This document shows positions 5,307-41,792 of a stretch of DNA of 45,235 nucleotides, piece by piece. Source of the stretch: Acidimicrobiia bacterium (GTDB taxonomy: Bacteria; Actinomycetota; Acidimicrobiia; Spongiisociales; ZC4RG35); the NCBI GenBank assembly GCA_012270885.1, contig JAAXHN010000035.1, positions 1 through 45,235 on the forward strand, written 5' to 3'. The position numbers and the translations under genes are program-made. The first letter of the stretch is position 1, and each line of letters starts with the position of its first letter. A model generated the notes under the pieces. It was not told the DNA's origin. It worked only from the letters and a program-made list of their open reading frames with translations, and did no database searches.

Positions 5307-5459
5307 CTATTTGTTGAGTTGTCTTCGATCGGAGCCGTCGACGTTCACGACCCAGATACCCTTCGAAGAATACGACGGTCCGCCACTATAGGTGATGCGG
5401 GCACCGTCCGGTGACCAAGCCGGAGCATAGGAGAACCTACTGGTTTCCGTTCCCGCCAT
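5307..5459 (-). pseudogene. Remnant of a TolB/PD40-type beta-propeller protein
   Basis: Reading the minus strand from an ATG at 5459 gives 50 residues ending in TAG at 5307. They contain a full PD40 (WD40-like, TolB family) signature: SYAPAWSPDGARITY, then GIWVVNVDGSDRRQLN. This matches a single blade of a propeller that normally has six or more blades, so the gene is a 3' fragment. It overlaps the last codons of the SLH-CAP gene in another frame; the two lie on the same strand. I infer that recombination joined the SLH-CAP gene to the tail of a former propeller gene. It is probably not functional. Confidence 0.6.
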
Positions 5460-7443
5460 CGATAAGGCATGTGGCGTACTGGTAGGGGGTTTGAGCCGTG
5501 CCGCCCAAGCTCACGTTGGTGACGGTGATTTTGTAGCAATCGAGTTCAGAGAAGGTTGGTACCTCACCGGAGTTCTTGTCGCCGTACACCGCCCACACCA
5601 CAGCCGGACCTCCGTAATTAGAGTTCCTGTCGATGACCTCGACCGGTATGGGCCCCTGGTTGTTTGAGACCGTGACAGTCGCTTCGCTGAAGTCCGCCCC
5701 CGGTAGCTGGAACGACCAGCGGCCCCATACGACTTCTGCCGGTACGTAGCCGGCGGGAGGCCACGCTACAAAACCACGTTGCTCTCGTATATCGACTTGG
5801 CGCCGTGCTTCTCCCAACACGTATAAAGCGTTTGTGGCGTAGGAGGGAATGTTGCCGGTACCGATCACTCCCAGCGGCGGGTACAGGATCCAGCGACGAT
5901 GGCCAACAGGATAGTTGGCGCCGCCGCTGTCTCGCATGTAAAAGTCGATACCGTCGGTCCCCATCTTTCCTAGGGCGAGGTTGCTTTTCGCGGCGCCTGA
6001 CCGGCCGGTTCCGGTGTAGCAAATCCAGTCGCTTCCCGGTCTGTGTGACAGGGCTCTCTGAGCTGACATCATTAGTGCGGCATGTTGGGCGGCCGTTGTG
6101 TAATCCGGTCGTTCGGTGACGGTGTAAAGGCCTGCCATCTGCCGGTACCAGTTGACCCGTTGCACCACGCTGTCCCGGAAAGCCTGGCTGGTGGTCCCCG
6201 CCTCGCAGGAGGCGACGCTGCCTGTGAACTCGATGTCGGGTTTTTCTCTTTGGAACTCCGTCAGATAGGCGTCTACGACCGCGTCCCGGTCCCAGGTGTC
6301 CAAACCCGGACCGGGATGGCAGCCGCCATGTTCGAGAGTCCTCACCAACAGTCCGGAGGGCAGGTTCGGGTTGTCCTCGACATCATGTGCTACCCCCTCC
6401 GCTATTCGCACCACGACCGTGCCTTCGGCTGCTGGGACGATTGTCATTTCATAGTCGGATCCGGAACCGGTCAGACCGGTGGCCTTACCATTGACCACGT
6501 CCACACCGCCTATACCGAAGCCGGTCACCGCCCGAGCAAAGGAGACCGCCACGTTGAAGGAACCGGTCACCGCCCGCGACGTGGCTGAGTCGATCGTCAC
6601 AGAAAACGGATCACCAGCAGGGGCCATCCCACCCGTCGTTGTAGTGGTGTCCGCAGGTGCGTCACCATTCTCTTTGGTGGTATCCGGAAGTGGGTCACCA
6701 TTCTCTTTGGTGGTATCCAGAAGTGGGTCACCATTCTCTTTGGTGGTATCCGGAAGTGGGTCACCGTATTCGGCGCGGTATAGGAATGTGGCCATCTGCC
6801 CTCGGGTTGTGTCGTCGCCGGGACAAAACCTGGACCCGTCACCGCATCCCTTGGTAATCCCCGACCCCGCCAGGCGAGCCACCTCCTCCGCATACCACGT
6901 GTCAGCAGGCACATCCACGAAACCAGGGTCCGGGGCAGCAGGAAGTACATAGGCGCGGGAGATGAACGCCGCCATCTGAGCACGGGTCACATGATCATCA
7001 GGACAAAACACAGATCCGTCACCACATCCCCTGGTTACCCCCAACTCGGCCATCCGCTCGATGAACGGCGCATGAAAACCATCCGCGTCCACATCCTCGA
7101 ACCTCGACCCGGAAACCGACGGTGGGTCCTCATAGTCAAGAATCCGGACCACCCACACCGCCATCGTCTTGCGATCGATGGCCTCGTCGGGGCAGAACCC
7201 GGCTACACAACCCGTCCCGTCGAACACTCCGGCTTGCTCCAGTTCAATGACCGGGGTCGTGTAATAGACACCATCGGGCACATCATCAAAGCCGGCCGAC
7301 TGGGCCCCCGCCGGAGACCCCACCATGGCCAACACCAACACCACCACCAAAACCCACGAACCGCCACGGCGGGGGCTCTCCCCTTGCCCGCAAGAAGGCC
7401 CCGAGATGACACCCCCCCGGCCGGGCACTCGCAATGGCTTCAT
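5437..7443 (-). CDS. Secreted SLH-domain protein with Ig-like and CAP domains
   Basis: The chosen start is ATG 7443 (668 residues), because GAAGGGAC sits just upstream and a signal peptide follows (hydrophobic WVLVVVLVLAMVG, cleavage near AGA-QS). An extra 16 codons are possible. Three S-layer-homology repeats follow, each with a C.xGFCPD/GCGDGSxFCP..xxTRxQMA signature, which would bind the protein to the cell wall. Next come an 11-residue repeat linker (GDPLPDTTKEN, see repeat entry), a bacterial Ig-like domain (SGSFNVAVSFARAVTGFGI ... VVVRIAEGVAHDVEDN) and a C-terminal CAP/SCP domain (VNWYRQMAGL ... AAQHAALMMSAQRALSH ... GHRRWILYPP). CAP domains act in extracellular binding or proteolysis; the role here is unknown. 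The gene stands alone and faces away from the acyl-CoA ligase. Confidence 0.85.
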   Translation of the reverse strand: MKPLRVPGRGGVISGPSCGQGESPRRGGSWVLVVVLVLAMVGSPAGAQSAGFDDVPDGVYYTTPVIELEQAGVFDGTGCVAGFCPDEAIDRKTMAVWVVRILDYEDPPSVSGSRFEDVDADGFHAPFIERMAELGVTRGCGDGSVFCPDDHVTRAQMAAFISRAYVLPAAPDPGFVDVPADTWYAEEVARLAGSGITKGCGDGSRFCPGDDTTRGQMATFLYRAEYGDPLPDTTKENGDPLLDTTKENGDPLPDTTKENGDAPADTTTTTGGMAPAGDPFSVTIDSATSRAVTGSFNVAVSFARAVTGFGIGGVDVVNGKATGLTGSGSDYEMTIVPAAEGTVVVRIAEGVAHDVEDNPNLPSGLLVRTLEHGGCHPGPGLDTWDRDAVVDAYLTEFQREKPDIEFTGSVASCEAGTTSQAFRDSVVQRVNWYRQMAGLYTVTERPDYTTAAQHAALMMSAQRALSHRPGSDWICYTGTGRSGAAKSNLALGKMGTDGIDFYMRDSGGANYPVGHRRWILYPPLGVIGTGNIPSYATNALYVLGEARRQVDIREQRGFVAWPPAGYVPAEVVWGRWSFQLPGADFSEATVTVSNNQGPIPVEVIDRNSNYGGPAVVWAVYGDKNSGEVPTFSELDCYKITVTNVSLGGTAQTPYQYATCLIDGGNGNQ
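6661..6771 (-). repeat. 33-bp tandem repeat inside the SLH-CAP gene
   Basis: Three head-to-tail 33-bp copies lie at 6661-6693, 6694-6726 and 6727-6759, with one base difference (6719), followed by a partial copy to about 6771. They encode the 11-residue linker unit GDPLPDTTKEN between the SLH repeats and the Ig-like domain. The near-identity of the copies implies recent expansion, so copy number may differ between strains and change the reach of the surface domain. Confidence 0.9.
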
Positions 7444-7984
7444 ACCAAAAGTCCCTTCAGATTCACACCAAACCGATAACCGATCCGACAATAATAGGGT
7501 CCGTTGATTTTGAGCGGTTGCTCAGGCACGTCGTACAGGATCACGTCCCGGCGCAGTTTCCAGTCTTTTGGAACCGGGTCCTTATCATGAGTCAACTTGA
7601 TGGGAAAGGGACGATTGCAGTACAGCCCGGAGACTGTCTCGTCGGCCACATATCGGTCGGCAAAGGGCGATTGTTCGACTCGAAACCAACTCAATCGGAC
7701 AGTATCGAACAACTTGCCATTAAGTGCTTGCCACCGGTCATCTTCGCCTTCACCTGAATAAGCGATTCATAGTAACATAGTAACAACGTAAAGCCACAGA
7801 TGGGAGACCATCAGCTGAGCAAGCGCTCCGAACTCTTACCGATAGCAACTGGCAGCCTCTCTCCCCTAGCCTTGATTCCGTAGGTCGGTTGATCATCGGA
7901 GAGAAGATGCCTCAGTAATCGTACGCAATCGAGACCTCGGTCAAGCCGCTCGGGAGGCTACTCCCCTGCGTTAGCCTATGAGCT
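7444..7984. other. Divergent intergenic region between SLH-CAP and acyl-CoA ligase
   Basis: About 540 bp with no convincing gene. It must hold the promoters of two divergent genes. Overlapping open frames occur on both strands (7434-7757 plus, 7440-7712 minus) but resemble nothing, and both reach into the SLH-CAP gene start. The region is AT-richer than its surroundings. TAGCCT at 7972-7977, seven bases before the ligase ATG, could be a -10 for a leaderless transcript; no good -35 is seen. Confidence 0.4.
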
Positions 7985-24110: not shown

Positions 24111-24875
24111 TTAGGTTGGGGGACGCCGGTTTCCGGCGCCGGAGCGCAGGTCCGCAAGCCGATGGCAGATGATCGCACCCGCCGCCGCGGCGTTGAGGCT
24201 CTCCGTTCCACCGGACATGGGGACCGAGCACCATAGATCGACCCGGTCGGCGTGCTCGGGAGAAACACCCCGGGACTCCTCGCCTATGATCAACCACCAC
24301 CGCCGACTGTGATCCAGGAGGGAGCCCAGTTCGGTAAGCGGGACTCCTCCCCGGGGAATCGCGGCCACCACCATTGCTTCGGAAGGAGCTTCCTCCACAT
24401 CCCCGACGGCCACCCGGAAATGCCCGCCGGCTCCCGCCCGGAGCACTTTGGGCGCCCAGGGGTCAACCGTCCCAGGGCCCATCGCCACATCCCATCCGAA
24501 GGCCGAGGCGGTGCGGATCAGGGTCCCGGCGTTACCCGGTTCGGAGACCATAAGCCACAGGGTGTCCTTACCGGCGGGTCGGTACCGGGGGATGGAAAGC
24601 ACCGCGATCGGACCCCGAGGTGTCTTGGTGTCCGCGAGCCGGGCCAGAACTTGGCCGCTGACCGCGGTCAGGGGTATCCCGTGCTCCTCACAAAGATTGC
24701 GAGTCACCGCGTCTTCCCCCAAGGCCAGAACCTCCAGAACCTCCTCCTTCGCGTCCAAAGCCTCCGACAGGAGATGAGGACCCTCCAACAGGGTTCTCCC
24801 GGCAAGTTTGCGATGACGTGGCCGGTGCAGCCTGGCCAATTCGGCGATCCGGGGGTTACGCCGGGAGAGGATCAA
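24111..24875 (-). CDS. SpoU/TrmH-family RNA 2'-O-methyltransferase
   Basis: A 254-residue SPOUT methyltransferase, probably acting on 23S rRNA or tRNA ribose. An N-terminal substrate-binding domain (LLEGPHLLSEAL) precedes the SPOUT knot motifs: PGNAGTLIRTASAFG, IIGEESRGVSPE, and VPMSGGTESLNAAAAGAI. TTG start overlaps the rplT stop (TTGA). This methylase commonly sits between rplT and pheS in actinobacteria, which supports a ribosome role. The exact nucleotide is not known. Confidence 0.92.
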   Translation of the reverse strand: MILSRRNPRIAELARLHRPRHRKLAGRTLLEGPHLLSEALDAKEEVLEVLALGEDAVTRNLCEEHGIPLTAVSGQVLARLADTKTPRGPIAVLSIPRYRPAGKDTLWLMVSEPGNAGTLIRTASAFGWDVAMGPGTVDPWAPKVLRAGAGGHFRVAVGDVEEAPSEAMVVAAIPRGGVPLTELGSLLDHSRRWWLIIGEESRGVSPEHADRVDLWCSVPMSGGTESLNAAAAGAIICHRLADLRSGAGNRRPPT

Positions 24876-25222
24876 GCCTCTTGGGCTATCTTCACCAATT
24901 GCGAGAAGGCTTCCGGATCATTGACCGCCATATCGGCCAGCATCTTGCGGTTTATCTCCACGCCCGCCGAGTTGAGACCCGCCACAAACCGCGAGTAGCT
25001 CATCCCGTTCTGACGGGCGGCGGCGTTGATCCGGGTGATCCACAAGCGCCGGAAGTCGCCTTTCCGGGCGCGGCGATGGCTGTAGGAGTCGGCCATGGCA
25101 TGCATGACCTGCTCGTTGGCGGCTCGGAACGTGCGGCTCTTGGCTCCCCGATAGCCCTTGGCCCGGGCCATCACCTTGCGGCGGGCGCGGCGGGCGGAAG
25201 AGGCGTTCTTTGCTCTTACCAT
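24872..25222 (-). CDS. rplT: 50S ribosomal protein L20
   Basis: A 116-residue L20, a 23S rRNA-binding assembly protein. Typical sequence: RRKVMARAKGYRGAKSRTFRAA, HRRARKGDFRRLWITRINAAAR, and SYSRFVAGLNSAGVEINRKML. It follows rpmI by 13 bp. Confidence 0.98.
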   Translation of the reverse strand: MVRAKNASSARRARRKVMARAKGYRGAKSRTFRAANEQVMHAMADSYSHRRARKGDFRRLWITRINAAARQNGMSYSRFVAGLNSAGVEINRKMLADMAVNDPEAFSQLVKIAQEA

Positions 25223-25460: not shown

Positions 25461-25997
25461 CTATCTCTTCTGCCTCTGTCTGCCCGAGCCGTGGTTGGCA
25501 GGTGCCAGCATCATGGTCATATTGCGACCCTCCATCTTGGGCGCCTGTTCCATCACCCCCTCCTGGCTAACCGCTTCGGCCAGCCTGGCCAGAAGCCTTT
25601 GGCCGTACTCGGGTCTTTCCCGCTCCCGACCACGAAACCGAACGGTCAACTTCACCTTGTCCCCACCCGAGAGAAAGGAAATAACCTTGCGCGTCTGCAT
25701 ATCGAAATCGTGGTTTTCAATCCGGGGCCGAAGCCGCAACTCCTTGATGACGGTCCGTGACTGACTCTTGCGAGCTGCTCTCTCCTTGATCGAGCGCTCG
25801 TACTTGAATCGTCCGTAGTCCATAAGCCGGCAGACGGGAGGATCGGCCATCGGCGCCACTTCCACCAGGTCCAGATCCAACTGTTCTGCCAGCCACATTG
25901 CCTCCTCGAGTTTCTTGACGCCGATCTGTGCTCCGTCCGGCGCCACCAAACGCACCTCGGCGGCCCTGATTGTGTCATTCACTCGAAGTTCTGCGAT
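25461..25997 (-). CDS. infC: Translation initiation factor IF-3, probable ATC start
   Basis: A 178-residue IF-3 that keeps 30S subunits free and checks start-codon pairing. The N-terminal domain begins ELRVNDTIRAAEVRLVAPDG; the linker is KYERSIKERAARKSQS; the C-terminal domain contains RPRIENHDFDMQTRKV and VRFRGRE. A longer frame exists (to 26093), but it has no supporting ribosome-binding site. AGGAGG at about 26004-26009 (minus strand) lies six bases before an ATC at 25997-25995, exactly where IF-3 should begin, so ATC is the likely start. IF-3 genes in other bacteria use AUU for autoregulation, so the same mechanism fits. Head of the infC-rpmI-rplT-SpoU-pheST-argF-mpg operon. Confidence 0.9.
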   Translation of the reverse strand: MAELRVNDTIRAAEVRLVAPDGAQIGVKKLEEAMWLAEQLDLDLVEVAPMADPPVCRLMDYGRFKYERSIKERAARKSQSRTVIKELRLRPRIENHDFDMQTRKVISFLSGGDKVKLTVRFRGRERERPEYGQRLLARLAEAVSQEGVMEQAPKMEGRNMTMMLAPANHGSGRQRQKR

Positions 25998-26140
25998 GGT
26001 TGTCCTCCTGTTTCCAGAGATGGCGACAAAGAAAAGACGAATCCGCTCCCGAAGAACCGCGGCGCACCCGAAGAGTGGCCGGGTGGGAAGCAAATCGGCT
26101 TCCGCTTCGTACTATGCAACTGAGTCAAAGTATAACCCCT
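25998..26140 (-). promoter_or_regulatory. infC leader with possible promoter and hairpins
   Basis: On the minus strand a TATACT box (near 26127-26132) is preceded by TTGGGA at 18 bases, a plausible promoter. The roughly 120-base leader contains two small stem-loops: GGAAGC/GCTTCC and CACCCG/CGGGTG with a nine-base loop. In other bacteria the infC leader is a site of control by L20 or by IF-3. Here such control is inference; the hairpins and box positions are seen. Confidence 0.4.
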
Positions 26141-26167: not shown

Positions 26168-26890
26168 TCAGATCCGAGTTATCTCAGATCTGAGAGCGTT
26201 CACCACCGCCCGTGCGGCTTGGGAGCCAGCATTGGAACCGGGCTGGCTGCGGGCCACCGCCTGCTCCCAGTCGGAGACCGCCAGCACCGCGTTGCCCACC
26301 GGCACCCCTGTCTCCACCTGAAGTTGGATCAGTCCCTGGACTGCTCCTTCGACCACCGACTGGAAGTGGTGGGTCTCTCCCCTGGCAACCACACCGGTAG
26401 CCACTACCGCCTGGCAGCCCGCCTGGATCAGCCGGCTGGCTCCCCACGGAAGTTCCCATGCTCCGGCGACCTCAAGTTCAAGGATGTTCTGCGGCAGGAT
26501 CCCCAACTCCTCCAGGGTCTTCCGGGCCCCCTGCCCCAATCGCTGGGACACCGGAGTGCCCTCCACCTTGTCGAATCGGGCCATCACCAACCCCACCGTG
26601 GGATCTCTCCGGGCCCACCGCAACACAATGAGCCATCCAAGGCCGATCAGGGAACTGATGAGCACCCCCGCGCCAGCCAGCAGGAAGACCAGAAAAAAGC
26701 TCCACTCCAAATCGTCCCTGAAATAGAGCAGGCCCACCAATCCCACCGCCGAGACACCCACCCAGACGATCGTTATGGAAATCGCAACCCGGCGGTAGAG
26801 CTCGAAGTTTGCAGACCTTCGATACTCGAAGTTCGCCAGCCGCTGATAGAAGGAGGGACTTCCGGGAAACACCCGCGAAAATTTTAGCAA
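26168..26890 (-). CDS. ribH: Membrane-anchored lumazine synthase-like protein
   Basis: A 240-residue protein. Residues 98-236 match 6,7-dimethyl-8-ribityllumazine synthase (riboflavin pathway): VGLVMARFD (Phe106 equals the substrate-stacking Phe22 of the Bacillus enzyme), AGAWELPWGASRLIQ, GVVARGETHHFQSV (His175 equals His88) and AVARSQPGSNAGSQAA (Arg214 equals Arg127). Residues 1-95 are unusual: a basic-aromatic head, then two transmembrane helices at about 35-57 and 65-90, in one uninterrupted frame. Ordinary RibH is soluble and forms pentamers or 60-mers. No other rib gene is adjacent. Either the enzyme is anchored at the membrane or the domain has a new role. Start is TTG 26890, or a GTG 15 bases downstream; uncertain. 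Confidence 0.75.
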   Translation of the reverse strand: MLKFSRVFPGSPSFYQRLANFEYRRSANFELYRRVAISITIVWVGVSAVGLVGLLYFRDDLEWSFFLVFLLAGAGVLISSLIGLGWLIVLRWARRDPTVGLVMARFDKVEGTPVSQRLGQGARKTLEELGILPQNILELEVAGAWELPWGASRLIQAGCQAVVATGVVARGETHHFQSVVEGAVQGLIQLQVETGVPVGNAVLAVSDWEQAVARSQPGSNAGSQAARAVVNALRSEITRI

Positions 26891-36807: not shown

Positions 36808-38325
36808 TCAGGGAAGATACGGGGCGGTGACAGATGGACAGACCTCGGGGTCCGAGCAGGCCACCATCACCATGCCCGAGGGGATGGGAGCGACGAAGAC
36901 ATAGTCCTCACCCGAGGCCGAGAACCCCAGGTCCTCCCGGAATTGAAGCTCTCCCACGTGCATCGCTCCCTTTGCGTATCCACCGAGAAGGACGACCAGT
37001 TCATCGGCCTCGTCCTGGCTGTCTCCCGTGTATTCCCAGACCAGCACCACCTCGCCCTCCTCGCTGTATCCCACCAGGCTGCGCCCCCCGCCCCATCCGG
37101 TCGCCGCCTGCAGCGCAACATCGGGGCCGAGCACCTGCTCGAACATGACCAGGATGTCCAAGAAGCCCCATGTGTAGTCGTATTTCTCCTCATATCCCAC
37201 GGGAAGCACACCAGCGGGCCTCCCCATCTCTATCACCTCCGTGGCCGGAGAGGGAGCACCCACGTGGATCTCTTCGGTGGAACCAGGCGGGTCAAGGTAC
37301 ATCCTGTTCACCGCGGGCCAACCGCCTTCTCTCCACCGATTCACCACGTACTCGAAGCCTGCCTCGTAAGGGAAGTAGAGAGCCAACTCCATGAACAACG
37401 GGATGTCGATGTCCGGTGGCTCAAAGTCGGCAAACTCCCTCACCAGGCGATTCCGCTCGGAAGGGTCGAGGTTTTGCACATAGACGAACTCCGCCAGGGT
37501 GGCGTCTCCCTCCGCCACGCCGACCAGACCCGAGGCGGGATCGTACAACTGGCTGTCCACCAAATCCTCCATCCTCGTGCCGAAGTCGAAGTGCTGATCG
37601 GTGAGGGCGTGAATCAACTCGTGAACCAGCGTCAGGGTCTGCATTCCCGTGAACTCTTCACCTGATGCAGGAATCACCAATTCCTTGTCTTCGCTGGAGT
37701 AGAACCCCGCCACGCTCTCGCCATACAGTTCCCCGTACAGCGCCCTCAGATCGTCGTCGGGCTCCAGAAGGCCGAGCAGTTTGAACAGGGCCTCGTCGAC
37801 CTCGATGTCCTCTAAGTCGGAGTCCACCTCCATCCGAACCCGTGCCTCGAAGTCTTCAGGGGAAAGGACGGTGATGACCGGCAGTTCCTCGAAGTCCAAC
37901 CCCCTTATGCCCTCGGTGACCTCCACGGCGTCCCAGACCAGCGCCGAGATCTCCGGGCTGAGACCCTCGATAACCGGCAAGTCCGGATCCGGTTCGGCCA
38001 CGGTCGTGGTGGTGGCGGGGGCCGCCGCAGTGGTGGTCGTGGGGACCGCCGTAGTGGTAGTCGTTGCCGTCTCGGTCGTGGTGGCTTCGGTGGTCGTGAC
38101 CGGAGCATTAGTGGTGGTGGGCGCTTCGGTGGTGGTCAGAGGAGCCGTAGTGGCAGTTGTGGCGGGCGCCGCGGTAGTGGCCGCCACCGCCTCCTCGGTA
38201 GCCCTGGTGGCCGTTGAGTCCGAGGCGCCTCCGCAGGCTGCCACCACCAGGGCCCCCACCACAATCGCCGACATGAAGGTCGACCGAACTGGACGGCTCG
38301 GACTCGAGTGGTCTGTGCGTTTCAC
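36808..38325 (-). CDS. Lipoprotein zinc metallopeptidase with HExxH
   Basis: A 505-residue lipoprotein: a signal peptide with lipobox LVVAAC (Cys31), a Thr-rich linker (about 40-110, mostly TTT/APT runs, likely O-glycosylated), then a compact domain. It contains LTLVHELIHALTDQHF (HExxH at 235-239) and, 33 residues on, GVAEGDATLAEF with Glu272 as probable third zinc ligand: a gluzincin-like plan. The family is not one I can name with certainty. It sits upstream of a paralogue (38458-39807) that has lost HExxH. It would act on the outer face of the cell membrane or in the wall. Confidence 0.75.
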   Translation of the reverse strand: MKRTDHSSPSRPVRSTFMSAIVVGALVVAACGGASDSTATRATEEAVAATTAAPATTATTAPLTTTEAPTTTNAPVTTTEATTTETATTTTTAVPTTTTAAAPATTTTVAEPDPDLPVIEGLSPEISALVWDAVEVTEGIRGLDFEELPVITVLSPEDFEARVRMEVDSDLEDIEVDEALFKLLGLLEPDDDLRALYGELYGESVAGFYSSEDKELVIPASGEEFTGMQTLTLVHELIHALTDQHFDFGTRMEDLVDSQLYDPASGLVGVAEGDATLAEFVYVQNLDPSERNRLVREFADFEPPDIDIPLFMELALYFPYEAGFEYVVNRWREGGWPAVNRMYLDPPGSTEEIHVGAPSPATEVIEMGRPAGVLPVGYEEKYDYTWGFLDILVMFEQVLGPDVALQAATGWGGGRSLVGYSEEGEVVLVWEYTGDSQDEADELVVLLGGYAKGAMHVGELQFREDLGFSASGEDYVFVAPIPSGMVMVACSDPEVCPSVTAPYLP

Positions 38326-38457
38326 TGTCCCCCAACCCTCCCGGCCGGGGAGAGTGTCCGGGTTGCGACAACGGCTCCGGGCGGCGGAAATGTCACTACC
38401 CAGAGCCTATCCCCGTTGCAGGGAATGAGGAGGGGAAACAGGACCATTCGAAAACCC

Positions 38458-39807
38458 TCAGCCACCCCGGGAAGCCCGCAACCCGCGTCCAACCTCCACG
38501 TCGGAAGCGGCTATAAAGGCCAGTGCCTGGTCTTCTCCACCCAGCCAGGCATAGGTGGCGCCGGAGAACTCCACCCCATCGTCGGTCACCATGGGTCCTC
38601 CCGCATCCATGGCGTCCACTATGTACTCCACCAGGGCGGCCCGCATCTCGTCGGTGTCCGCAACCGTATCCCCCACGTAGTCCACCACCAGGGCGATGTC
38701 TTCACCGTCGCTGAAGACCAGATACCGGTCGCCTCCCCAACCCCGTGAGGCAACCGCCGCCTGCTCGGGGGGAAGTGCTGAAGCCAGAAGGGCATTCCAT
38801 CCCCACTGTCCCCACACGGAGTCGGAGACCAACTGGTACGCCTCCGGAGGAGAGGCCCCCGGCTTGGGCAGAAGCACGGGATCCAGCCGCCCGACACCCT
38901 GCTCCAGTATGAACTCGGTGGAATCAGGCGGGTTGCGATGGGTCTGATTCACCAAATCCCAGCCGCCCGACTGAAACAGCACCTGTAAGAACTCGAGAAC
39001 CGGACCCGACGCGAAACCGAGGCTGTGGGTCAGAAACGTTGGGAGAACCAGGTCGTGGGAGGCGACTTCCCACGCCTCTTCGAGCACCTGCTCTCTAGCC
39101 GTGTCACTCATGCCGTCCATGAACAGCAACTCCACCAGGGTGGCGTCGGCCTCCGCCATGCTTCCCAGGACCGCCAGGTAATCGCTGTCACCCACCCGGG
39201 CCAAACGGGATTGGCGCCTCCAGACACCCAGGTGCCGGTCCACCAGGGCTTTGGCGATCTCGCCCACCAGCGTCATCTCCTCAAGGGGACTCGGGTCCTC
39301 CAGGGTGGAAACCATCCACAGCTTCTGGCTGGCCACATCGTAGTAACCGGGAACGGGACGAGCCCGGAAACCCGACAGGACCGTCGCCCAGTCATGGGTT
39401 GGGTCGATCAGACCGAGCAGCCCGAACAGCGGCTGATCGACCGCGGAGAGTCGCGGGTCATTGCCGACGCCGGCGCGAAGCCGTCTCACCATCTCCTGGG
39501 ACGTGATCCCCTCGATCTGCAGGGGTTCCACAAAGGTGAAGCCACGAAGAGCCTGGGTCTCCTCCACCAGTTTCACCATCCTCTCCCGGAAGGACTCGGG
39601 CAGGAACAACAAGCCCTCCACCGAAACCGGCTGGGTGGTTGGCGTGGTAGTGGTCGGCACGGTCGCGACGGTGGTGGCGCTCACTTCGGAAGTCACCTCC
39701 ACCATCACGGTGGAGGCGGGAGAAAGGGCCGGATCATCAGCGCAGGAACCCACCAACAAAGCCAACCAGGCCGCTGCGGACCATCTCACAAGAGAGCTTC
39801 GCCTCAC
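38458..39807 (-). CDS. Lipoprotein paralogue of the metallopeptidase lacking HExxH
   Basis: A 449-residue lipoprotein (lipobox LLVGSC, Cys22) with a short Thr-rich linker. It aligns with its downstream neighbour throughout: QALRGFTFVEPL versus EGIRGLDFEELP, PLFGLLGLIDPT versus LFKLLGLLEPDD, and GWGGDRYLVFSD versus GWGGGRSLVGYS. At the active site TLVHELIHAL becomes TLVGEIAKAL (182-186): both zinc histidines are lost while the Glu and the third ligand Glu219 (SMAEADATLVEL) remain. It is therefore probably a catalytically dead partner, inhibitor or substrate-binder. The two genes are in tandem, 132 bp apart. Confidence 0.75.
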   Translation of the reverse strand: MRRSSLVRWSAAAWLALLVGSCADDPALSPASTVMVEVTSEVSATTVATVPTTTTPTTQPVSVEGLLFLPESFRERMVKLVEETQALRGFTFVEPLQIEGITSQEMVRRLRAGVGNDPRLSAVDQPLFGLLGLIDPTHDWATVLSGFRARPVPGYYDVASQKLWMVSTLEDPSPLEEMTLVGEIAKALVDRHLGVWRRQSRLARVGDSDYLAVLGSMAEADATLVELLFMDGMSDTAREQVLEEAWEVASHDLVLPTFLTHSLGFASGPVLEFLQVLFQSGGWDLVNQTHRNPPDSTEFILEQGVGRLDPVLLPKPGASPPEAYQLVSDSVWGQWGWNALLASALPPEQAAVASRGWGGDRYLVFSDGEDIALVVDYVGDTVADTDEMRAALVEYIVDAMDAGGPMVTDDGVEFSGATYAWLGGEDQALAFIAASDVEVGRGLRASRGG

Positions 39808-39893
39808 TGCTCGGAGGCTACCTTATCTTCGATCCATCACGGAGACGACCGGCTAGTCTATGCCCCGATCACCGATGAAAGGGTGACTTGTCC

Positions 39894-39984
39894 GGAGGGA
39901 TCGCATAGTCCGGCCTAGTGCGCGGCACTCGAAATGCCGTAGGGGGTTACCACCCCCTCGTGGGTTCGAATCCCACTCCCTCCG
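39894..39984 (+). tRNA. tRNA-Ser(CGA)
   Basis: A 91-base class II tRNA: acceptor GGAGGGA/TCCCTCC, anticodon loop CTCGAAA (anticodon CGA, reads TCG), a long variable arm TAGGGGGTTACCACCCCCT and T arm GTGGGTTCGAATCCCAC. The first of two tandem serine tRNAs. Confidence 0.93.
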
Positions 39985-40014
39985 CTCGGCGACCACGTCC
40001 GGCTTCGACCCGAT

Positions 40015-40099
40015 GGAGGGATGACCGAGCGGCCTAAGGTGACAGTCTTGAAAACTGTTGGGCATCCGTGCCTCGTGGGTTCGAATCCCACTCCCTCCG
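40015..40099 (+). tRNA. tRNA-Ser(TGA)
   Basis: An 85-base class II tRNA: acceptor GGAGGGA/TCCCTCC, anticodon loop CTTGAAA (anticodon TGA, reads TCA), a variable arm and the same T arm and acceptor end as the tRNA-Ser(CGA) 30 bp upstream. The shared 3' end suggests descent by tandem duplication. Confidence 0.93.
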
Positions 40100-40136
40100 C
40101 CTCAAACTCAAGCACGCTGCTCTCGCTTCCGGCTGT

Positions 40137-41792
40137 TCAATGACCGTCCAGCCACTCCCGGACAATCGAGCGGAGGGTGCCAAGTGGGACGGCACCGTTG
40201 CCGAGGACAGTTCTGTGGAAGCTCTTGACATCGAATGCCGAGCCCAACCGTGCTTCGCACTCGGCGCGCAGGGACTCGATTTCGAGGCGACCGAGCATGT
40301 AGGAGAGGGCCTGACCCGGAGTGGCGATGTACCGGTCGATCTCCTCGGTGATCTCGTGGAGGGACATGGGCGCATGGTCGGCGAGGAACTGGATGGCCTT
40401 GCGGCGCGACCAGCCCAGCGCGTGGATACCGGTGTCCACCACCAGTCGGCCGGCCCGCAGGGAGTCGGCGGTGAGCATGCCGACCCGCTCCCAGTCGTCC
40501 TCGTAGAGGCCCATCTCGTCGGAGAGGCGCTCGGTGTACAGGCCCCACCCTTCGCAGAAAGCCGGCAGGTAGTTGCGGTGGATGTCGTGGATGCCGGGGT
40601 TCTCGATGGCCAGAGCCATCTGGAGGTGATGGCCTGGTATGCCCTCGTGATAGGCGATGCCGGGAATCTGGAACCTGGCCCAGGCGGTCGGGTCTGCCAC
40701 ATTGAAGAAGAAGACGCCCGGTCGGACGCCGTCGGCGGACGGCGGGTAATAGTAGGCCATGGACCCCACGTCGATGGGATGGGCCTGACAGGGCGCCCTC
40801 GGAGTGGGATCAAACCACCCTCCCATCGCGACGGCAGCCTTGTCGAGACAGCGCAGGGCGTCCGCGACCAGCTCATCGGAGCCTGCATACCGGAGCCCCG
40901 GATCGTCGCGCAGGCGGGTGTATATCTCGGCGACTTCGTTTGTGCCGAGCAACGGTCCGGCCACGCGCCGGTATTCGTCCTCCAGCATCCCGACTCGCTC
41001 CAGGCCCAGCTGGTGGATGGCCTCAGGTTCCTTTTCGAGGGTGGTGTGGCTTCTGACCATGTCTCGGTACACCCCATCGCCGCCCGCCAGGTGGCACAGC
41101 CCGGGCCGGTCATCGGGACGTCCGGAGGGAAGGGTGATCTCAGCCAGTGCCTCCCGGAAGCGGATCAGGCCGGGGCGCAAGCCCGTCTCGATCGCGGTCA
41201 CCACGTCGGCCCGCCACGAGGTGGCGCCATCCAGACCAAACTCGGTGGGAGGGGACTGGTTGGCGATCGGGTCTTCGGCCGGTGGCAGAGACAGGATTTG
41301 TTCGAGCTTGCCGATGGTCTGGCGGACATGGCGCGCGAGAGGGACCAGCCCGTTTGAGCGGCCCTCCCGAAGCCGGTCCACCAGTTGATCGACCATCACC
41401 GGGAAGCCCCGCAGCTTCTCCAGATACCTGCGTCCGTGGTCGGCGGTGACCAGAGGCTGGAGGTAGAGCGCCGGAATGAGGGACCTCAGCAGCCCGCTCT
41501 GGGTGCTCGCTGCCTGTAGCTCCGACCACCAGACCGTGACGCTCGCATCCATGAAGGCGGCTGCCGCAAGGGTCTCCGCAAGGATCCGGTCGGATGGCTC
41601 CTCGGCGATCACCTGGGCCGCCTCGGCGGCGAACCGGAGGAATGCATCCCTGGAAACCGTAATTCCTTCAGCGGAAAGATCGTCCCAACGCTCCAGGCGG
41701 CTCAGCTCGCCGCGGGAGAGGTTGGCGAAGTGACGATGCTCGAGCCGGAACTCCCAGTACTGGTCGGCCAGAGCCCGGGCGGTTTGGGTCAT
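40137..41792 (-). CDS. DUF885 family zinc peptidase-like protein
   Basis: A 551-residue protein of the DUF885 family (M3/M32-like zinc metallopeptidases). The key motif IAYHEGIPGHHLQM contains HExxxH-H-type zinc ligands; a later Glu in CEGWGLYTERL is the likely third ligand, and AYYYPPSADGVRPGVFFFN matches the family core. No signal peptide, so probably cytoplasmic. Start ATG 41792 overlaps the nitroreductase stop (ATGA); a longer frame to 42155 is rejected because it reads through that gene. Confidence 0.88.
   Translation of the reverse strand: MTQTARALADQYWEFRLEHRHFANLSRGELSRLERWDDLSAEGITVSRDAFLRFAAEAAQVIAEEPSDRILAETLAAAAFMDASVTVWWSELQAASTQSGLLRSLIPALYLQPLVTADHGRRYLEKLRGFPVMVDQLVDRLREGRSNGLVPLARHVRQTIGKLEQILSLPPAEDPIANQSPPTEFGLDGATSWRADVVTAIETGLRPGLIRFREALAEITLPSGRPDDRPGLCHLAGGDGVYRDMVRSHTTLEKEPEAIHQLGLERVGMLEDEYRRVAGPLLGTNEVAEIYTRLRDDPGLRYAGSDELVADALRCLDKAAVAMGGWFDPTPRAPCQAHPIDVGSMAYYYPPSADGVRPGVFFFNVADPTAWARFQIPGIAYHEGIPGHHLQMALAIENPGIHDIHRNYLPAFCEGWGLYTERLSDEMGLYEDDWERVGMLTADSLRAGRLVVDTGIHALGWSRRKAIQFLADHAPMSLHEITEEIDRYIATPGQALSYMLGRLEIESLRAECEARLGSAFDVKSFHRTVLGNGAVPLGTLRSIVREWLDGH

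Follow-up and report, generated by a model that had tools for sequence, protein, structure and literature searches.

The window analyzed here, 45,235 nucleotides in all, comprises positions 1 to 45,235 of contig JAAXHN010000035.1 from an Acidimicrobiia bacterium (assembly GCA_012270885.1). Upstream of infC it carries a gene (ribH) for lumazine synthase, which catalyzes the penultimate reaction in the formation of riboflavin, vitamin B2; its product has a predicted membrane hairpin in front of the enzyme domain. The features discussed below are listed here, with F100, H169, R208, and A215 numbered from the GTG codon at 26872.

25461-26093, minus strand: infC (Pfam IF3_N and IF3_C), the downstream neighbor, which by synteny keeps the ancestral ribH-infC order
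26168-26872, minus strand: most likely extent of the full gene for the membrane-hairpin lumazine synthase, 234 aa, an open frame with a GTG start conserved in 6/6 congeners
26192-26599, minus strand: lumazine synthase (DMRL_synthase) domain (PF00885, E=8.7e-34 in the genome search; TIGR00114 above cutoff)
26228-26230, minus strand: A215, at the site of the Lys135 equivalent in relatives (K in 23 and R in 1 of 24 relatives, A in 6/6 congeners)
26249-26251, minus strand: R208, equivalent of Bacillus subtilis Arg127 by alignment
26366-26368, minus strand: H169, equivalent of B. subtilis His88 by alignment
26573-26575, minus strand: F100, equivalent of B. subtilis Phe22 by alignment
26621-26701, minus strand: predicted transmembrane helix 2, about residues 57/58-84 (Kyte-Doolittle peak 2.45), preceded by the acidic loop RDDLEW
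26720-26788, minus strand: predicted transmembrane helix 1, residues 29-51 (Kyte-Doolittle peak 2.28, no charged residue in 23)
26789-26872, minus strand: N-terminal 28 residues, net positive by charge count and predicted to be cytosolic, the part most constrained by omega (<=0.06 in pairs with measurable dS)
26881-26886, minus strand: TAAAAT, a -10-like hexamer 8 nt 5' of the GTG, its TANNNT form conserved in the congeners (by consensus only)

Gene structure, enzyme domain, and predicted membrane hairpin

The minus-strand open reading frame 26168-26890 is real, open, and a single continuous frame. Its previously assigned start, TTG 26890, has no in-frame start at the equivalent site in three of the six congeners compared (G000-G005, that is, the window genome and five sampled members of its genus), whereas GTG 26872 is in frame in all six, with a TANNNT-like motif just upstream. 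Therefore the gene is taken as 26168-26872, most likely encoding 234 aa, and the TTG is replaced by the conserved GTG. With its -10-like TAAAAT, ribH is possibly a leaderless gene with its promoter at this site.

The frame is continuous across the six congeners, the sole length difference being two codons, in-frame. Selection was measured among them as pairwise NG86 omega: the 27 residues preceding helix 1 gave at most 0.06 (pairs with measurable dS), the hairpin gave 0.05-0.33, and the RibH domain gave 0.02-0.13. The low values in the hairpin and in the residues before it show that the N-terminal region is translated. The initial annotation had cautioned that a frameshift or start error might assign the helices to a different gene; this was checked and does not apply, and the fusion stands, with purifying selection acting on both the hairpin and the domain. 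Apart from that caution, nothing favors an artefact in which a frameshift, a wrong start, or a misassembly joined two genes, and we regard it as ruled out, with a probability close to nil, by the same frame in six separate genomes, the single two-codon difference, and omega below 0.35 throughout.

The enzyme part of the protein matches Pfam DMRL_synthase (PF00885) over residues 98-233 (E=1.8e-33, 115.8 bits against a cutoff of 26.7) and exceeds the threshold of the curated NCBIfam lumazine synthase equivalog TIGR00114 (88.1 against 84.6 bits). The equivalents of Phe22, Gly55, Glu58, Thr86, His88, and Arg127 are retained in the congeners, with Phe22 replaced by Tyr in one of them. Thus the domain is complete, as had been proposed, and has the active-site Phe, His, and Arg (F100, H169, and R208); the earlier reading overlooked that the active-site loop has changed and that the N-terminal strand has been lost. 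Compared with 24 relatives, all six congeners carry the changes N23D, T27S/A, D87H, Y89F, K135A, and E138Q; four residues are inserted after position 25, and one is deleted in the 127-135 loop. The equivalents of Lys135 and Glu138 are therefore absent, being A and Q in every congener and K/R and E in all 24 relatives. Lys135 has been listed among the key residues together with Arg127 and His88 (PMC4735121). By sequence comparison, however, the solved yeast enzyme (1ejb) has His at this position; thus members of the family do not strictly need Lys135, and a protein that has lost it is not necessarily inactive. In the icosahedral enzymes the N-terminal strand pairs into the sheet of a neighboring subunit (PMC2935281); here this strand is lost, and its place is taken by the last part of helix 2 together with a linker some eight residues long.

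In Kyte-Doolittle profiles, charge-free hydrophobic segments at about residues 29-51 and 57/58-84 recur in all six congeners, so that the sequences bear out the original claim of two transmembrane helices fused to the domain. A long helix spanning residues 57-87 appears in a low-confidence AlphaFold2 model; with an alignment of six close sequences the mean pLDDT was 49.7 for the full protein and 50.1 for the domain alone, and these models are too poor for use. Charges in the six congeners amount to +5 to +6/-2 on the N side, +1/-2 or -3 in the loop, and +4 or +5/-2 or -3 after helix 2. Since positive charges flank the helices and the RDDLEW loop is negative, both ends of the hairpin should be cytosolic, which would place the RibH domain on the cytosol side, where its substrates are. 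Judged from these sequence features, RibH in this genus is probably held on the cell membrane. Searches with the hairpin alone detected no relatives of it elsewhere in the window genome or in four genomes from other genera of the family, and the only Pfam match to it was DUF3054 (E=0.019), below the cutoff of that family. In Mycobacterium, a membrane PH-domain gene follows ribH, and the hairpin might derive from such a neighbor.

Genomic context, distribution, and divergence

In nearly all genomes of the same family and order in which the locus was examined, the gene order is rpe, ribD, ribE, ribBA, ribH, infC, rpmI, rplT, pheS. In all six congeners ribH stands alone upstream of infC-rpmI-rplT, and rpe-ribD-ribE-ribBA is located elsewhere (on contig C133 in the window genome). 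Comparison of these gene orders shows, at the level of sequence, that the ancestral cluster was split exactly between ribBA and ribH, and that ribH remained beside infC and gained the hairpin. Because of this cut, no other riboflavin genes are found near ribH, as the initial annotation correctly stated; they sit together on the other contig. Since ribH lies beside infC as in the relatives, synteny identifies it as a positional ortholog, rather than a paralog, of the ordinary ribH. In one relative (G029, locus L080), about 2.6 kb separates ribH from infC, the distance being a few hundred bases or less in other relatives.

Exactly one PF00885 match, the hairpin protein, was found in each congener genome (approximately 94-96% complete; window genome 94%), and a separate soluble ribH was found in none of the six. 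RibD, RibE, RibBA, and RibF are present in all of them. RibE has 197 aa and ends soon past the conserved AKYVEKLL, in the genus and in the soluble relatives alike; a tail for cage localization is not obvious in it. A search for NMN/PnuX-type transporters detected no importer of this type, and the rib cluster showed no FMN riboswitch.

Of 395 genomes from the class Acidimicrobiia, 312 had a match to a profile built from the six congener proteins. Among the matches listed, the hairpin aligned only in the six sampled genus members and in no other genome of the class, the remaining listed matches beginning at about residue 82 or later; thus, in this class-wide survey, the fusion looks like an invention of the genus. 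A scan of viral contigs yielded no RibH relative, and a plasmid search yielded, among the matches listed, only ordinary RibH aligned over the domain at approximately 36-38% identity. The genus members are uncultured MAGs (e.g., 'Acidimicrobiia bacterium isolate SB0665_bin_24'), which we take to originate from marine sponges.

In the RibH tree the genus nests inside the group containing its family, on a stem of 1.9 changes/site with short branches within; the corresponding RibBA stem is 0.32. RibH identity between the genus and its relatives is 0.44, versus 0.54 among the relatives; the same drop is almost absent in RibD and RibE, smaller than that of RibH in RibBA and InfC, and larger in RplT. 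These values suggest that RibH changed in a burst around the time when the fusion arose and was constrained afterwards; the very long RibH stem could also mean a change of function.

Several side observations were made in the window and in the same order. The product of rplT (24872-25222 of the window), L20, is 0.65 identical to its relatives versus 0.80 among them, a larger drop than in RibD, RibE, and RibBA. On the minus strand, 5437-7491 encodes a 684-aa protein with S-layer homology, Ig-like, and CAP domains, likely a surface protein, and 36808-41113 holds three long consecutive open reading frames with no confident Pfam match (36808-38325, 38458-39807, and 40034-41113), some of which may not be genes. 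Three nearly complete genomes of the same order (G038, G045, and G053; L053-L055) are without RibH, RibE, and RibB and keep a RibD_C-type gene, and another (G047; L048) has RibD and RibBA and neither RibE nor RibH. From their gene content, these four look like riboflavin auxotrophs or users of another route.

Proposed mechanism and alternative explanations

We propose, with a probability of about 0.6, that in the ancestor of the genus the ordinary and sole lumazine synthase was remodeled as a membrane protein, and that it is an active, cytosol-facing, tethered pentamer with no closed shell. Membrane insertion, topology, activity, the pentameric state, and any benefit of membrane placement are predicted features of this scheme. 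As the sequences show, the cluster rpe-ribD-ribE-ribBA-ribH-infC-rpmI-rplT was cut between ribBA and ribH, the N-terminal strand of RibH gave way to a 28-residue basic segment and a two-helix hairpin, and the fused gene was thereafter under purifying selection. Pentameric lumazine synthases exist, the active sites form between neighboring subunits of the pentamer, and the N- and C-termini point outward at the particle surface (PMC7369331). With the termini on the outer face of the ring, the hairpins would hold that face against the membrane: five of them would fix the pentamer flat, so that what was once the inner face would be exposed to the cytosol. The enzyme would still join 5-amino-6-ribitylaminouracil and dihydroxybutanone phosphate, although its handling of phosphate may have changed, and the lumazine would be handed over to soluble RibE. 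A closed 60-subunit shell is unlikely, because the hairpins would point outward on all sides, in the cytosol. Of the two possibilities raised originally, a membrane-bound assembly fits, although probably as a pentamer rather than a closed shell, whereas a new role is not needed: since this is the only RibH, a positional ortholog, with the rest of the pathway present, the old role performed on the membrane is more likely. More tentatively, and at somewhat less than even odds, this would be a natural ring-form RibH on the inner membrane that has abandoned the shell or soluble form, has rebuilt its phosphate-binding loop, and organizes the last riboflavin steps there, for respiratory flavoproteins or flavin release.

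The joint loss of the Lys135 and Glu138 equivalents and the long stem branch followed by slow change could also reflect an anchored protein that has lost catalysis, or nearly so, and has another job, such as flavin or lumazine binding for regulation or handover, with lumazine forming slowly without an enzyme or riboflavin being imported. Lumazine can form slowly in the absence of the enzyme, although a literature search on this slow non-enzymatic formation returned no confirmation. We consider the loss of catalysis unlikely, as the Phe22, His88, and Arg127 equivalents are kept, the TIGR00114 equivalog cutoff is exceeded, the remaining pathway is kept in 6/6 genomes, no PnuX-type importer was found in the transporter search, and yeast 1ejb has His at the Lys135 position.

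It is quite doubtful that the gene additionally yields a soluble RibH that coexists with the anchored form, whether through an internal start around residue 93 or through cleavage past the hairpin. In the window, V93 is encoded by GTG and closely preceded by an SD-like GGAG, and an ATG at M97 is present in all six congeners; however, GGAG occurs in only three of the six, one of which has ATA in place of GTG93, and a start at M97 would truncate the first core strand. When the congeners were compared, the start around residue 93 proved not to be conserved. Assembly of lumazine synthase usually tolerates fusions at its termini (PMC7369331), which speaks for a tethered enzyme still building shells or partial shells, for instance open caps or flat membrane-bound arrays. 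Nevertheless, this seems very improbable, given the loss of the N-terminal strand that is paired with a neighbor in icosahedral enzymes (PMC2935281), the short linker between hairpin and domain, and the expected incompatibility of 60 outward hairpins with a closed cytosolic particle.

Comparison with known lumazine synthases

Lumazine synthase serves as a model of protein shells and as a scaffold for vaccines, and the papers considered here describe it as a soluble pentamer, decamer, or shell. Judged by title and abstract, no natural membrane form was apparent among the matches listed from the open literature mentioning both 'lumazine synthase' and 'transmembrane'. If the sole RibH of this genus is indeed membrane-anchored, the shell would be shown to be dispensable, the genus would be a natural experiment bearing on the reason that certain bacteria house riboflavin synthase in a shell, and it could be asked whether flavins are made at a site on the membrane.

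The RibH proteins of the same family (e.g., G019 and G029; L077 and L080) share with the window protein the domain, the position at the side of infC, the sole copy, and the Phe/Trp22-His88-Arg127 pattern, with approximately 42-43% domain identity. In contrast, they have no hairpin, retain the N-terminal segment that precedes the core as well as Lys135 and Glu138, and lie in the rib cluster. The icosahedral lumazine synthase/heavy riboflavin synthase of B. subtilis and Aquifex aeolicus belongs to the same fold family and, by homology, catalyzes the same reaction. However, these enzymes form a soluble 60-subunit shell, whereas the two N-terminal transmembrane helices of the window protein would leave no room for a closed one, and the free N-terminal strand on a soluble subunit, a feature of icosahedral shells, is here replaced by the hairpin. 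Finally, the pentameric yeast enzyme (1ejb) resembles the window protein in its ELPW motif and the absence of Lys at 135, and its free pentamer is the state proposed here; it differs in being soluble, with no membrane segment, and in having its insertion after Arg127, that of the window protein being after residue 25.
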